Shown: positions 52,839 to 62,882 of the stretch, piece after piece
How positions within the stretch are numbered: position 1 is the stretch's first letter
Layout: each line of letters begins with the position of its first letter
NCBI GenBank assembly: GCA_012519885.1
Contig: JAAYPI010000053.1
Coordinates: 1 to 64,000, forward strand
DNA: 64,000 bases
Origin: Bacteroidales bacterium
GTDB taxonomy: Bacteria > Bacteroidota > Bacteroidia > Bacteroidales > Paludibacteraceae
Direction of reading: 5' to 3'
The notes under the pieces: model-generated
The model's input: only the letters and a program-made list of their open reading frames with translations
Databases searched by the model: none
What the model was told of the DNA's origin: nothing
Program-made: the position numbers and the translations under genes

Positions 52839-54326
52839 CTAATTATTTTTTTCCGTAAAGGCATATACGCGTTTACATACTAATTCTGAACTTATTACAG
52901 CCATGGGCAATCCTGCTCCTGGTATGGTTGAAGTACCTACATAAAAGGTATTTTCAAATTTTTCGTCAAAATTGGCAGGTCTAAACCCTCCAATTTGAAA
53001 CATCGTGTGCGACAATCCCAATCCGCTACCACGATGAAGATTAATCATTGTTTCCCATTCTTTAGGTGTAAAAATAGTTTTAGACACTATATGTGGAGCA
53101 ATGTTTTTGTCAATACGATTAGAAAAATCTGCAATAATGCTATCGACTATTTTATCACGGTCGTCCCAATTTGGTTTTTGCAATAGGGTAGGTACTGGAC
53201 ATACAAAGAATAAACTTTCGCAACCTGCAGGAGCACATTCTTCGTTGTGCTTGGATAGTACGTTTACATAGTAATAAGGCTTATCTAATGTATCTGGATT
53301 TTTCATCACATTGTTGGCATATTCTTCGTAATTAGTGCCGAGGTAATAATTATGATGATTCACCTGAGGAAGCTTGCAATCAATGCCTAAATAAATTGTT
53401 AAATAGCCCATTGTCCAATTCATTTTATCCAGTTTTTTTGTGCTGAATTTTTTACGTTTCATCACTGTGCCTCTAAATACAGCAGCATCTGCATTTATGA
53501 CAAAAATATCGGCAAGCCATTCTTTGCCATGTTGATCAATTACGCTTTTTACGCGTATTTTTTCAGATTGGATATTCACAATCTCGGTATTGTATTCAAA
53601 TTTTACGTTTTCTTTTTCTAATTCAGCAACAATACCTTCTACAATTTTATACATACCTCCTTTTACGTTGTAATAGCCATCGTGTTTAAATTCAGTATAC
53701 GATAATAGGGTGTAAATTGCCATGGTATCAAAAGGAGTTCTGCCCAAAAAGAATGCTACAAGCGATACAATGCGTTTAACTTCTTTGGATGAAAAATGTA
53801 AGCCTACTTGTTGCCAAAAGTTACGTAGCAATACCGGTAAGTGTACTGGGTTTACACGCATTAAGGTTGCAATATATTCAAATATAGAGTCAAAGTTGTT
53901 TTTTACCACCAAGTCGATTGTGTCATGAAACAATGCACCTGATTTTTGCAAATACGTAGCCATTTTAGCTTCAAAATCAGGTTCGATATCTTTGAACTGC
54001 TCTGCCAATTTTTTCATATCTTTGTACAAATGATAGCTACGTGGGTCGCCAGCAAAGTGTACGCTATACAAGGGGTCGAGTTCAACAAACTCAAATGGCA
54101 TCGTTATATTACATTCTTCGGCTAATTTTTTAAATTCATACGACATACTAAAAAAACTTGGACCTGTGTCGAACGTGAAACCATCTTTTTGGATGCGATT
54201 TAATCTTCCACCGGCTTGTGTGTTTTTTTCTAATATGGTTACTTTGTAGCCTTTTTTTACTAAACGTAATGCTGTGGTTAATCCCCCTAATCCAGCACCT
54301 ACAACGATAACTTCTTTATTTTTCAT
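52839..54326 (-). CDS. crtI: Phytoene desaturase
   Basis: A 495-residue FAD enzyme. The N-terminal dinucleotide motif is VGAGLGGLTTALRLVKKGYK with EKNTQAGGRLN; the C-terminal substrate/FAD motif is GTSTIPGAGLPMAVISSELV, typical of CrtI-type desaturases. It adds double bonds to phytoene to form lycopene or neurosporene; such enzymes use oxygen or quinone as electron acceptor. Gene order (crtB, CruF-like, acyltransferase, GT2, TPR, crtI) supports the assignment. Number of desaturations cannot be told; a CrtN- or CrtD-like activity is not excluded. Confidence 0.9.
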   Translation of the reverse strand: MKNKEVIVVGAGLGGLTTALRLVKKGYKVTILEKNTQAGGRLNRIQKDGFTFDTGPSFFSMSYEFKKLAEECNITMPFEFVELDPLYSVHFAGDPRSYHLYKDMKKLAEQFKDIEPDFEAKMATYLQKSGALFHDTIDLVVKNNFDSIFEYIATLMRVNPVHLPVLLRNFWQQVGLHFSSKEVKRIVSLVAFFLGRTPFDTMAIYTLLSYTEFKHDGYYNVKGGMYKIVEGIVAELEKENVKFEYNTEIVNIQSEKIRVKSVIDQHGKEWLADIFVINADAAVFRGTVMKRKKFSTKKLDKMNWTMGYLTIYLGIDCKLPQVNHHNYYLGTNYEEYANNVMKNPDTLDKPYYYVNVLSKHNEECAPAGCESLFFVCPVPTLLQKPNWDDRDKIVDSIIADFSNRIDKNIAPHIVSKTIFTPKEWETMINLHRGSGLGLSHTMFQIGGFRPANFDEKFENTFYVGTSTIPGAGLPMAVISSELVCKRVYAFTEKNN

Positions 54327-54346
54327 ATACCAATATTCTTTGCTTT

Positions 54347-55069
54347 TTATTTTAATTGCGGATAAATTTCTTGTTTAATCCAAGATGATGTTGGCTCTGC
54401 CGTTACTATCTTGTTGTAATACTCTGTTGCTTTATCTTTTTTTCCTAGAGCAATATACGTGTTTGTTAATGTTACTAATACATTGATATAGTTCCAGTTA
54501 GTAATACGTTGTTGTGGATGTTTTTCGTACCATTTTTCTACTTTCAAGTAATACTGGCTAGCTGTTTCTTTTGATCCGCCAAATGTTACAGGCATATAAT
54601 AGTAAATATTTCCATATTGCAATAACGCAAACATATTTTCGGGTTCAATTTCCAATGCCTTTTTTACATGCCAAATGCTTTTTGGTCCTAAATAACTTGC
54701 TTTAAAAGGTGTTATTGCAATTTTATATCCATAAAATGCTGCTTTATAAGCATGTAAATCAGCAGGTTTGTATTTTTTATTATCCAATGCGTCAATGTGT
54801 TTCTCGGCTCGTCGCAAATATATGGTAGCTTCATCGTGTTTTTTTTGTCCTAAGCACCATGCTATGTACCCATATTGGTAGTTGAGAAGTTCGAGTCGTG
54901 TTTGATTGTTCGTCAAAGAGGTTTTCTCCATGGTATCAATTATTTTCTTCCACTCGCTCATAGTGTTGTTAACGTAAGCAAGGTACACTTTTTCTTGGTT
55001 GGAATTAGCCAGACAGCTAAGTGTAATAAATAATGAAATTAGGAGTGATATATATTTCTTTCTTTCCAT
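54347..55069 (-). CDS. Secreted TPR-like protein in the carotenoid operon
   Basis: A 240-residue protein with a signal peptide (KYISLLISLFITLSCLANS) and helical repeats (~30-230; FALLQYGNIYYYMPVTFGGS, WYEKHPQQRITNWNYINVLV, ALGKKDKATEYYNKIV). It overlaps the end of the GT2 gene by 31 bp and lies 20 bp before crtI. The role is unknown. TPR scaffolds could organise the pathway at the membrane, but that is inference. No enzyme motif is visible. Confidence 0.78.
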   Translation of the reverse strand: MERKKYISLLISLFITLSCLANSNQEKVYLAYVNNTMSEWKKIIDTMEKTSLTNNQTRLELLNYQYGYIAWCLGQKKHDEATIYLRRAEKHIDALDNKKYKPADLHAYKAAFYGYKIAITPFKASYLGPKSIWHVKKALEIEPENMFALLQYGNIYYYMPVTFGGSKETASQYYLKVEKWYEKHPQQRITNWNYINVLVTLTNTYIALGKKDKATEYYNKIVTAEPTSSWIKQEIYPQLK

Positions 55070-56130
55070 AGTAAATGACGTTTGCGTTTGTTTTTTATGG
55101 CACTAAACAATAAAATGCCTAAATAATTATGCTGATAAAGAAGGTATTGTAAGTTTTTAATAACAGACTGATGACTAATAACAGACACGCCAATACGTGT
55201 ACTAATAACCATCATTAAATAGATTGCCAATAAGATTGGAAACCATAATAGAACAATAAAAGACAAACTTGTAAGAGCCCAAAATAGCAATCCAAGTATA
55301 GCCGAACCTCCAAAAAAGCTCAAGCAATTTTTGCTAAAACCAGTTATTGCTTCATCGTTGTTACTATACATTCTACACGAAATATCGTCAACTGAAGCTA
55401 AGCATGCGATATGTTGTTTTCGTTTTTTGTATAAACGTGCAATTTCAATATCTTCAACCGCAGTATTTTTGAGTTGTTGGTGTGGTAAAATAGACTGATA
55501 ACTATTTTGCGAAAAAAACATACATTGCCCATTAGCTGCCGATAATGATGAAAAATAAGGAAACCGAACTAAAATGAGCGGTAGTAAAGTAAGCAGTATG
55601 TAATTCATTAAAGGAACAGTTTTCCATTCTCCAGCACTTTTCATCTCTTGTTTCGGAAAAATGGATACTAATTGTTTTTGTTTGTTGATACTAAAATGCA
55701 GCAATTTACCAATGAGCCTTGGCTGAATGCGTACATCTGCATCTAAAAAAAGCAGGTATTCTCCTTTTGCTTCTTTTGCCAATTGATGACAAGCATAATT
55801 TTTTCCTAACCAGCCTTTTGGTAGACCTTTCGATGCTAGCAGTTTTACTCGCGAATCGTGCTGTATTTGTTGCTCAATAATTGAGGACGTATTGTCAGTC
55901 GAATCATCATCAAGTACTATAATCTCTATGTGTTGATACGTTTGTTTGCGTAAATCGCCTAAAATAGATGCTATGTTTTTTCCCTCGTTTCGTGCAGGAA
56001 TTAATACAGATACCAATTTGTCATTATGGGTGTATTCTTGTGTCAAACTTTGACGAAATATCCAGTTTACACCTACCACGAGCAGTTGTAACAAAGCAAA
56101 ACCAAGCACTATGTAGGCAAAATAAATCAT
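55039..56130 (-). CDS. GT2-family glycosyltransferase of the carotenoid operon (CrtQ/CruC-like)
   Basis: About 363 residues: N-terminal membrane helix, GT2 domain with VLIPARNEGKNIASILGDLR, IVLDDDSTDNT, the metal-binding LDADV (residues 130-132 from the chosen start) and VEDIEIARLYKKRK, then two or three C-terminal helices. It resembles transferases that put sugar on hydroxylated carotenoids (CrtQ, CruC). ATG 56130 overlaps the acyltransferase stop by ATGA; a longer frame from 56163 is less likely. Acceptor assignment comes from context. Confidence 0.82.
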   Translation of the reverse strand: MIYFAYIVLGFALLQLLVVGVNWIFRQSLTQEYTHNDKLVSVLIPARNEGKNIASILGDLRKQTYQHIEIIVLDDDSTDNTSSIIEQQIQHDSRVKLLASKGLPKGWLGKNYACHQLAKEAKGEYLLFLDADVRIQPRLIGKLLHFSINKQKQLVSIFPKQEMKSAGEWKTVPLMNYILLTLLPLILVRFPYFSSLSAANGQCMFFSQNSYQSILPHQQLKNTAVEDIEIARLYKKRKQHIACLASVDDISCRMYSNNDEAITGFSKNCLSFFGGSAILGLLFWALTSLSFIVLLWFPILLAIYLMMVISTRIGVSVISHQSVIKNLQYLLYQHNYLGILLFSAIKNKRKRHLLWKERNIYHS

Positions 56131-56756
56131 TCCGTAGCACGTTTTTGTTGGGTACCTAAACAACTGTTGTAAAAATCTTGAAAGGCTTTCTCAATGTCTT
56201 TATGATTTGGTTTATCTGTTTGATAATTAGTTAAATAGATATATAGGGTAGGCTTTTCATCAGAAAAATAATCAATTATATTTACCATAAATACTACCTC
56301 AATGGTATCGCTTGCATGCTGTAAAATTCGTTCAATGCCTTTTTCAAAAACCATCGTTTGTTGGTGCATGCTGGTAATTTTTCCTTGCGGAAACATAAGT
56401 ACCAAATTGTTTTTTGTATGTAATAATTCTTGTGCATACGTAAGTGATGCAATAATCTCTTTTGATTTCTTATTAATAGAAAAACCTCCTGTTAAGTTCA
56501 AAAATTGATGTTTTTTCAATTGCTCTTCTAACATCATAAAATGGAACTTTTTTTTCCATAATTTCTGATTGATATATTGTACGATAAATCCATCCCACCA
56601 ACTTATATGGTTGCCAATGAGTAAAATAGGTTTATCCATAGTGTCCGTTGGTAAAAGCGTATTAATGTGCACATCTTTAAAGTGCCTTTTTATTTTCCAA
56701 AAAGAATAGAAAATAAAAAATGGGTAGATAAACCAATGATGCTTTGCTTTTATCAT
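56127..56756 (-). CDS. Acyltransferase (PlsC/CrtO-like) of the carotenoid operon
   Basis: About 209 residues with an N-terminal hydrophobic segment and the HX4D motif NHISWWD (His50 and Asp55), plus MFPQGKITS as block III. PlsC-type enzymes transfer acyl groups from acyl-CoA or acyl-ACP; in carotenoid clusters (CrtO, CruD) the acceptor is the sugar of the carotenoid glycoside. ATG 56756 avoids the overlap with the CruF-like gene. A glycerolipid role is the alternative. Confidence 0.82.
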   Translation of the reverse strand: MIKAKHHWFIYPFFIFYSFWKIKRHFKDVHINTLLPTDTMDKPILLIGNHISWWDGFIVQYINQKLWKKKFHFMMLEEQLKKHQFLNLTGGFSINKKSKEIIASLTYAQELLHTKNNLVLMFPQGKITSMHQQTMVFEKGIERILQHASDTIEVVFMVNIIDYFSDEKPTLYIYLTNYQTDKPNHKDIEKAFQDFYNSCLGTQQKRATE

Positions 56757-56770
56757 CTTTACACGTTGAT

Positions 56771-57412
56771 TTAGAGTAAAAACAACAATACAACAAAAAA
56801 TACAAATTGGCACGCTATAATATGGGCAGCCAGCGGATTGCTGAGTTTTACTTTGAAAATTTTAAGCAAACTATGAAAAAAAGCAGCAATTACAAACCAT
56901 GCTATGTAGTTTTGTATTGGCACCACGTTATTTTGCCACGACCACATATCCATTTTGGGAGCCACTTGTTCTAACACGATATCATACACCAACATTCCAG
57001 ATGCTGCAACTACTATTTTGAGTACTGCATGCCATTTCGTTTTATCGACCATGCAAGCGGTAGTATACACTAAGAATAACCAATTTATACCAATCAATAG
57101 GGGTGTGTCAAAAACCTTCATACCCAAACTATTACCGTATTCGTATCCACCAAAAATTACACCTGTTTTAACGCCAATAATTTCAACAACTAAACCAGCA
57201 AGAAAAATAAAGAAGAATAAAATATTGCTCGTAGTATTTTTTTTAGTTGGATGAAAATAAGCCAAATACCCAAAACTTAATACAAGTGCATAGGGAGTTA
57301 AAATTTTAAATAAAGGAAGTGTATAGGGGATAGCCATGCCAATGATTCCTACTACATAAAATATAATAAAGAATTTTTTTACTTCACGTTCGTCTGTTAT
57401 CGAAAATTTCAT
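56771..57412 (-). CDS. cruF: CruF-like carotenoid hydratase (DUF422)
   Basis: A 213-residue membrane protein with six hydrophobic helices and DUF422 motifs: GVIFGGYEYGNSLGMKVFDT, WLFLVYTTA and DIVLEQVAPKMDMWSWQN. CruF proteins hydrate the psi end of carotenes at C-1'. ATG 57412 is 13 bp after the crtB stop. The family also contains other carotenoid membrane enzymes, including cyclase-like proteins, so hydration of the acyclic end is likely but not certain. Confidence 0.82.
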   Translation of the reverse strand: MKFSITDEREVKKFFIIFYVVGIIGMAIPYTLPLFKILTPYALVLSFGYLAYFHPTKKNTTSNILFFFIFLAGLVVEIIGVKTGVIFGGYEYGNSLGMKVFDTPLLIGINWLFLVYTTACMVDKTKWHAVLKIVVAASGMLVYDIVLEQVAPKMDMWSWQNNVVPIQNYIAWFVIAAFFHSLLKIFKVKLSNPLAAHIIACQFVFFVVLLFLL

Positions 57413-57425
57413 ATATGGTAATGGG

Positions 57426-58265
57426 TTATATTTTGTGTAAAAGGAAATCAATGTATGCTTTGGCAAATAGTGCGATTTTTTTAGTGTCCGAAACTCGGAT
57501 ACGTGCTTCTAAAATGCCATGTACGGGTGTTTTTTTTATTTTTTTCAACAGTTCGTAAAAATATAAATAGGCAATATAAACAGCTAATTTTGTTTTTCCA
57601 GGCAATTCGCTTATTCCCTTGCGAGCTTCTATAAAATCGGTTTCCATATCGTTGATAATACTACGTTTTTTAGCCTCATTAAATGTTTCAATGCTAAAGT
57701 CTGGAAAATAAGCTCGACCTAAATATTCATAATCAGCTTTTAAGTCGCGTAAAAAGTTAACCTTCTGAAAAGCGGAGCCTAATCTTTTAGCTGGAAGTAA
57801 TAGATTATCATATTCTTTTTTATCTCCATTTACAAATATGTGCAAACACATCAATCCAACAACATCTGCCGAACCATAAATATATTCACGAAGTTCAGCT
57901 TCTGTTTTATATACTTGCTTGTCAAGGTCAAGTTTCATGCTATGTAAAAACGAATCTACTAAATTAAGTGGTATTGAGTATTTGTTTATAGTAAGAACGA
58001 AGGCATGTAAAATGGGGTTCATACTAATACCTGTTTCCAAGGCTTTTTGAAAATCTAATTCAAAATCTTTGATGAGCGACTTTTGTTGTGTTTTATCAAA
58101 AGTATCAACTATTTCGTCAGCAAATCGAACAAACCCATAAATAGCATAAATGGCTTTTTTTGTTTCGTATGGCAAGCAACTAATAGCGATAGAGAAAGAG
58201 GTGCTATAGGTTTTAGTTACCAATTCACTTGTTTTAAATGCAATGTTTGTGTATAGTTCCATCAT
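57426..58265 (-). CDS. crtB: Phytoene synthase
   Basis: A 279-residue trans-prenyl synthase. The two aspartate motifs are DEIVD (D50-D54) and DLKAD (D174-D178, in NFLRDLKADYEYLGRAYFP). It condenses two GGPP into phytoene (or FPP into dehydrosqualene). ATGATG at 58265 offers two starts. The lipocalin gene ends 4 bp upstream. With CrtI it starts the carotenoid pathway. Confidence 0.93.
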   Translation of the reverse strand: MMELYTNIAFKTSELVTKTYSTSFSIAISCLPYETKKAIYAIYGFVRFADEIVDTFDKTQQKSLIKDFELDFQKALETGISMNPILHAFVLTINKYSIPLNLVDSFLHSMKLDLDKQVYKTEAELREYIYGSADVVGLMCLHIFVNGDKKEYDNLLLPAKRLGSAFQKVNFLRDLKADYEYLGRAYFPDFSIETFNEAKKRSIINDMETDFIEARKGISELPGKTKLAVYIAYLYFYELLKKIKKTPVHGILEARIRVSDTKKIALFAKAYIDFLLHKI

Positions 58266-59623: not shown

Positions 59624-60466
59624 TTATGAAGTTATTAAATCTAATTCTTTTTGAATGAGTAGTGTTTTTTGAGGTGTTAGATAGAGCTCTTTGTCCCATT
59701 CATGATTAGATAATAATTGATTGCATGTAATGTATCCAGCATTTATTAATGTTTCTTTCTCTTTTTTTGATAGAGAATTAAGTATGGTTATAGGGTATAA
59801 CTTTAAAGAATCAACCAATTGTTTCAAATTCTCGTTGGCTGGATAATCCCACGATAATAAATACATCTCTTTACACTTTCCATACTGGATACTATCCGTA
59901 GTAAAGCGGGTATTTGTAACCACACCTGTAATAAATTCTAATCCCTCATAAATGGGTAATTTTTTTCTATAATCAATAATATCTTCTACACGCGAGTGTA
60001 CATATAAGGGTACTTGTATGGCTACTTGTTTTGATTGGTCTTGCGAGTATTTACATTCTAAGATATATTGAAAGGGAGGTTTCGTGGCTATTACATCCAT
60101 TTCGTGTTGAATGCAGGCTCCATGTACAACAACCCCAACCTCAGTTTTATATCCTCTTTTTTCAAATAACTGACCAATAAAATTTTCAAATGGATGTCCA
60201 GTAGGACCAAGCTCCATGATGGCTTTTTTCAACTTATACTTTAATGCTAGTTGGATACGTTCTTTTTTTAATAGTCCAAATGCAATAGCATATATTTTTT
60301 TAGTATGCATGCCATCTATCATTACTTTTTCTATTTCATTCAAAATATTTTTGGCTGTTTCTTGATTGGCACCTGCATTCATAAGCGACTGTACTAATTT
60401 TTTGGCTGAAAATTCTTGTTTTTCGCCAGATGCTTTAGTAACATACTTTGTATAATGTGTTTGCAT
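59624..60466 (-). CDS. ATP-cone domain fused to an Mrr-type (PD-D/ExK) nuclease domain
   Basis: A 280-residue cytoplasmic protein. Residues ~5-88 match an ATP-cone (TKASGEKQEFSAKKLVQSLM and the helical remainder). Residues ~90-200 are an Mrr_cat-like nuclease: conserved GHPFENFIGQLFEKRGY, then D124 in EMDVIA and E137-x-K139 in LECKYS, which fit PD-(D/E)xK catalytic residues. The C-terminus (~234-258) resembles a helix-hairpin-helix. No methylase or partner subunit is adjacent. It may be a nucleotide-controlled DNA or RNA nuclease; function unknown. Confidence 0.82.
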   Translation of the reverse strand: MQTHYTKYVTKASGEKQEFSAKKLVQSLMNAGANQETAKNILNEIEKVMIDGMHTKKIYAIAFGLLKKERIQLALKYKLKKAIMELGPTGHPFENFIGQLFEKRGYKTEVGVVVHGACIQHEMDVIATKPPFQYILECKYSQDQSKQVAIQVPLYVHSRVEDIIDYRKKLPIYEGLEFITGVVTNTRFTTDSIQYGKCKEMYLLSWDYPANENLKQLVDSLKLYPITILNSLSKKEKETLINAGYITCNQLLSNHEWDKELYLTPQKTLLIQKELDLITS

Positions 60467-60497
60467 AGAATAGTTACATGAGGGTTGAATAACAAAT

Positions 60498-60523
60498 AAA
60501 GGCAGAAACAGAGTTCTACCTTT
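60498..60523 (-). terminator. Terminator after the V-ATPase operon
   Basis: On the minus strand AAAGGTAGAA and TTCTGCCTTT pair over 10 bp with one wobble, about 40 bp after the K-subunit stop, followed by an AT-rich tail. Confidence 0.65.
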
Positions 60524-60562
60524 ATGAAAAAATAATAGAGCAATACCTTTGCATTAATGTTT

Positions 60563-62882
<2,320 letters not shown>

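Follow-up and report, generated by a model that had tools for sequence, protein, structure and literature searches.

What does a protein do that joins an ATP-cone to an Mrr-type nuclease? The question is raised by one gene in the window, by which we mean the whole stretch of 64,000 nucleotides analysed here. Well-studied ATP-cones, those of ribonucleotide reductases (RNRs) and of the repressor NrdR, switch deoxynucleotide synthesis. A preliminary description of the window had suggested that cutting of nucleic acid could be gated by the nucleotide pool, for example in phage defence or DNA repair.

Domain architecture of the window gene

The open reading frame is exactly as first described (280 aa, ATG start, minus strand), and the features to which we refer are as follows.

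59624–60466, minus strand: whole gene, encoding an ATP-cone, a PD-(D/E)xK nuclease and an AF1548-like C-terminal domain (280 aa, ATG start)
60203–60457, minus strand: ATP-cone, residues 4–88 (PF03477, E = 7.5e-6; VIA-align Z = 8–9 to NrdR and RNR ATP-cones)
59852–60202, minus strand: Mrr-type PD-(D/E)xK nuclease core, residues 89–205 (PF04471, phmmer match to 1y88, invariant columns, fold match)
60185–60187, minus strand: catalytic residue E94
60095–60097, minus strand: catalytic residue D124
60056–60058, minus strand: catalytic residue E137
60050–60052, minus strand: catalytic residue K139
59627–59797, minus strand: AF1548-like C-terminal domain, residues 224–280 (PF22357, E = 3.7e-5; alignment with 1y88 extends to the model's last residue)
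60496–60525, minus strand: 12-bp terminator-like hairpin with T-rich tail, between V-ATPase subunit K and the window gene (z = −2.98; consensus match only)

Three Pfam matches lie above the gathering cut-off: the ATP-cone (residues 7–62), Mrr_cat (89–150) and AF1548-like_C (224–256), the last with 24.2 bits against a cut-off of 23.9 and corresponding to the tail that had been called helix-hairpin-helix-like. The Pfam search found no modified-base-reading domain, nor Mrr_N even at an E-value of 1, which leaves the ATP-cone as the only N-terminal domain. AF1548 of Archaeoglobus fulgidus (PDB 1y88) matches residues 95–268 in a phmmer search (E = 7e-22); annexin and designed-repeat sequences in the PDB were discarded as chance helical matches. 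No NCBIfam model covers the protein, and the one weak match, to 2-phosphoglycerate kinase, was rejected as an identity because it spans the ATP-cone only and falls far below the cut-off.

An AlphaFold2 model was computed with 77 homologues (mean pLDDT = 93.6, pTM = 0.80). The PD-(D/E)xK core is intact, and the reading as ATP-cone plus Mrr-like nuclease is supported by sequence, profile and structure. The best fold match is AF1548, on which residues 87–280 superpose (VIA-align: Z = 22.2, 28% identity over 181 residues) and with which the protein shares the nuclease core, the D/E/K triad and the C-terminal domain of PF22357; the crystallised AF1548 chain, however, aligns only to these residues and contains no ATP-cone. 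Next come AspBHI, EndoMS, MspJI, FokI and Can2 (Z = 9.6–11.5), and since the nearest nuclease folds beyond 1y88 are those of DNA enzymes, the fold does not indicate an RNA substrate. Residues 4–74 superpose on NrdR and RNR ATP-cones (Z = 8–9, rmsd about 2), which fill nearly all top rows when the cone is modelled alone (Z up to 8.4). In the model the cone consists of a beta-hairpin (8–18) and helices 21–30, 35–48 and 55–84, the last running on as one long helix.

The orthologue in a congener, whose copy ends at a contig edge, is 71% identical over 249 matched residues (dN = 0.21, dS saturated). The order of V-ATPase and nuclease genes is also the same there, with the operon lying upstream of the window gene (subunit K at 60563–61021, then I, D and others). 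The conserved orthologue and linkage, together with these dN and dS values, indicate a real gene under selection. Judged from sequence, the terminator-like hairpin makes it probable that the window gene is transcribed separately from the V-ATPase operon; a functional link between the two was rejected on the hairpin and on the linkage being kept only within the genus. Downstream are a 205-aa membrane-type protein with no Pfam match, a lipocalin and carotenoid-type genes, the latter (52839–58265, minus strand) for a phytoene/squalene synthase, an amine oxidase/desaturase and a glycosyltransferase. Nothing in the window points to defence, in agreement with the earlier remark that the gene lies outside any obvious defence island.

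Conservation of the nuclease core and of the ATP-cone

Over 136 homologues, the following residues of the part beyond the ATP-cone are invariant: E94, H121, E122, D124, E137, C138, K139, Y155, R159, D162, N185, P209 and P225. They include D124, E137 and K139, rightly singled out in the preliminary description, and E94, which it had missed. Once a shift of 13 in the numbering of the crystal chain is allowed for, D124, E137 and K139 match D38, E51 and K53, the predicted catalytic residues of AF1548 (PMC1821046).

In NrdR, V51, K53, E59 and K65 (Escherichia coli numbering) are important for nucleotide binding (PMC12176259), and alignment of the motif VxKxxxxxExFxxxK places them at positions 9, 11, 17 and 23 of the window protein. 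Position 9 is always I or V, K11 is invariant (100%), K23 is kept in 98% of homologues, and position 55 is always T or S; position 17 is variable (E 48%, V 29%, Q 11%). Because three of the four contact positions are kept (I/V9, K11 and K23) and the fourth varies, nucleotide binding by the family's ATP-cone is likely but not assured, and nucleotide gating of the nuclease is plausible on the same sequence grounds. The likeness to the cones of NrdR and RNRs (PF03477) extends from the fold to the conserved nucleotide-contact lysines and, for RNRs, to the N-terminal position; the difference is that the cone is joined here to a nuclease rather than to a reductase or a Zn-ribbon repressor, with binding and switching putative.

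Distribution of the family

The combination had been thought rare, a view that the counts overturn. In the order, 51 of 295 sampled genomes carry the nuclease, in the phylum 49 of 296, and a scan of species genomes returned at least 579 loci, mainly in Bacteroidota. Within the window's own family, only two species, both of the window's genus, carry it (2/37 genomes). RefSeq labels the proteins only as 'ATP cone domain-containing protein', and a literature search found no published account of function, nor biochemistry of any member; the family is a widespread bacterial one that is uncharacterised. A small number of matches come from metagenome-assembled genomes (MAGs) labelled as other phyla. 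At least one of these, L104 in an 'Eubacteriaceae' MAG, may be contamination, since its genes are arranged as is usual in flavobacteria and the tree places it among Flavobacteriaceae.

Operons of the sister clade

The family tree consists of two clades, and the operons belong to the one that lacks the window gene. Gene maps were drawn for 53 nuclease loci of the phylum sample, and 32 of them show a beta-CASP ribonuclease immediately downstream, one or two genes along and on the same strand, an arrangement that is ascribed to this sister clade and is clustered on the tree. The gaps between the two genes are mostly −25 to +55 bp, with frequent overlaps, and the nearest solved relative of the partner is the ribonuclease TTHA0252 (E = 8e-75). 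The commonest other neighbours are genes for universal stress proteins (Usp).

Some operons extend further, with an AMP-phosphorylase-like enzyme and a PRPP synthase. The phosphorylase scores best with PRK04350/TIGR02645 and stays below the cut-off of the AMP phosphorylase models (AMP_phos, ARCH_P_rylase); its nearest solved structures are 4ga5 and 4ga4, of which 4ga5 is a putative thymidine phosphorylase. It occurs in three of the 296 Bacteroidota genomes, all three nuclease-positive (P = 0.004, ignoring phylogeny). The same gene order is found on both of the plasmids that carry a copy of the nuclease: in shorter form on that of Pontibacter, and as a compact run on that of Criblamydia (Chlamydiota; L143, NZ_LK031773.1, 2755–23564), where phosphoketolase, glycogen phosphorylase, nuclease, beta-CASP ribonuclease, phosphorylase, PRPP synthase and acetate kinase follow one another. 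This run resembles a polymer-to-ATP salvage cassette. An Acidobacteria-labelled MAG (L242) has nuclease, phosphorylase and PRPP synthase.

Several smaller observations concern individual loci. One genome (G525) carries three paralogues (L200, L201 and L202), whose contexts are Usp and beta-CASP genes; beta-CASP, phosphorylase and PRPP synthase genes; and solitary. One subgroup (L201, L084, L088, L093 and L104) has an 84-aa open reading frame between the nuclease and beta-CASP genes. At three loci (L191: 6317–7852, L187: 1241–2776 and L194: 6351–7886), a 511-aa protein in which an N-terminal ATP-cone precedes a domain of glucoamylase type (PF10091, E = 5e-86) is encoded beside the nuclease gene and separated from it by a glutaredoxin-like gene; the cone of the fusion is just below the Pfam cut-off, but over its first 30 residues it is very similar to the cone of the adjoining nuclease. 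FNR-type regulation of the clusters was considered and rejected, the intergenic regions holding no TTGAYnnnnRTCAA boxes beyond expectation.

Solitary form in the clade of the window gene

The clade of the window gene comprises 52 tree rows (SH-aLRT = 100), including most of the Bacteroidales rows. Unlike the sister clade, it has no downstream beta-CASP ribonuclease (a beta-CASP neighbour in 0 of 52 rows), and no recurrent partner appears among its neighbours. In a basal branch, the gene just downstream encodes 618–620 aa at three loci (L078, L083 and L090); three cyclomaltodextrinases in the clade's Pfam neighbour tally, which gives no member names, are probably these genes.

The genome of the window has no beta-CASP match at E = 1e-40 and no phosphorylase at the threshold used. 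Across the order the phosphorylase occurs in one of 295 genomes, and the nuclease and an operon-type beta-CASP occur together in three against 1.7 expected (P = 0.22). With no co-occurrence of nuclease and beta-CASP beyond chance, the phosphorylase all but missing from the order, and neither enzyme matched in the window genome at these thresholds, we rejected the idea that the Bacteroidales nuclease needs either of them.

Proposed function and alternatives

We tentatively propose, at a little short of even confidence, that the protein is a nuclease under nucleotide control that serves the turnover or salvage of nucleic acid, where gating, substrate and pathway are what we infer. On binding ATP and/or dATP, the N-terminal ATP-cone would alter the oligomeric state or domain arrangement in the manner of RNRs and NrdR, turning the AF1548/Mrr-type nuclease on or off with the nucleotide or energy state. 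The most likely task is regulated degradation of nucleic acid, either the cell's own or scavenged. Sister-clade operons produce it along with the beta-CASP ribonuclease and, in places, with the AMP-phosphorylase-like enzyme and PRPP synthase, which would convert nucleoside monophosphates to bases and phosphorylated ribose; in the Bacteroidales clade of the window it would act alone. That the solitary clade keeps the role of its sister is itself inferred, and because the function is transferred in this way we hold it cautiously. The operon with an RNA-degrading enzyme favours turnover, a reading that the preliminary description had not raised, over phage defence.

A more specific version, which we consider rather unlikely, is a self-digestion module gated by energy or nucleotides, in which the ATP-cone nuclease and the beta-CASP enzyme would degrade cellular nucleic acid on a change in adenine nucleotides. 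AMP-phosphorylase and PRPP synthase, joined in some genomes by phosphoketolase and acetate kinase, would process the products to precursors or ATP, with the Bacteroidales protein as a stand-alone form.

The alternative is a DNA-repair or structure-specific nuclease that the dATP/ATP level would hold back or permit, limiting its action to times when precursors are available. This reading draws on the fold neighbours, among them EndoMS, the Pyrococcus abyssi repair endonuclease 2vld (Z about 11) and Hjc resolvases, on a match to PF01870 (E = 0.075), and on a chromosomal and, in the order, vertically plausible gene. No repair genes recur beside the nuclease in either clade, however, and its steady companion in the sister clade is a ribonuclease; we regard repair as rather improbable.

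It is unlikely that the ATP-cone has lost nucleotide sensing and serves in structure or protein contacts instead, leaving the nuclease constitutive. There is a precedent in the inner ATP-cone of Pseudomonas aeruginosa NrdA, which does not bind nucleotides (PMC5794259), about half of the members have another residue where NrdR has E59, and the last helix of the domain continues unbroken (55–84) in the model; yet the conservation of K11, K23, T/S55 and I/V9 in the 136 sequences exceeds what a purely structural role would need.

Phage defence, which the preliminary description had offered as an example, finds no backing in the genomic context. A nuclease that acts against phages when infection upsets the nucleotide pool would be analogous to the ligand-gated CRISPR ancillary nucleases Can2, Card1 and Cdn1, which likewise join a sensor domain to a PD-(D/E)xK nuclease of similar fold (Z = 9–10), and the PADLOC profile CARF_PDDEXK matches (E = 9e-6); the patchy distribution and the two plasmid copies fit as well. 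Those enzymes, however, respond to cyclic oligoadenylate through CARF domains in type III CRISPR systems, and the window protein has neither feature. Viral contigs and phage records in the collections searched yielded no copy, on which ground a phage or prophage origin was also rejected. The neighbours are metabolic or unrelated, PADLOC matches among 52 adjacent proteins are few, scattered and generic, and there is no methylase or other immunity partner, so we judge this role quite unlikely.

A modification-dependent (type IV, Mrr-like) restriction enzyme is very improbable: the match to the 'restriction endonuclease' profile PF04471 (Mrr_cat), which E. coli Mrr shares, the fold similarity to MspJI and AspBHI and the prediction of AF1548 itself as a restriction endonuclease (PMC1821046) stand against an ATP-cone in place of the N-terminal DNA-reading domain of Mrr, no modified-base-reading domain in the Pfam search, and single-copy metabolic contexts with no defence or restriction neighbours.

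Implications

A nuclease under the switch of an ATP-cone would link nucleic-acid breakdown to the nucleotide pool. Were the self-digestion module true, ATP-cones would switch catabolic hydrolases more generally, and the glucoamylase fusion in three genomes hints likewise. Hundreds of genomes carry the nuclease under an uninformative name, and the operon of the sister clade supplies concrete candidate partners and substrates for it.
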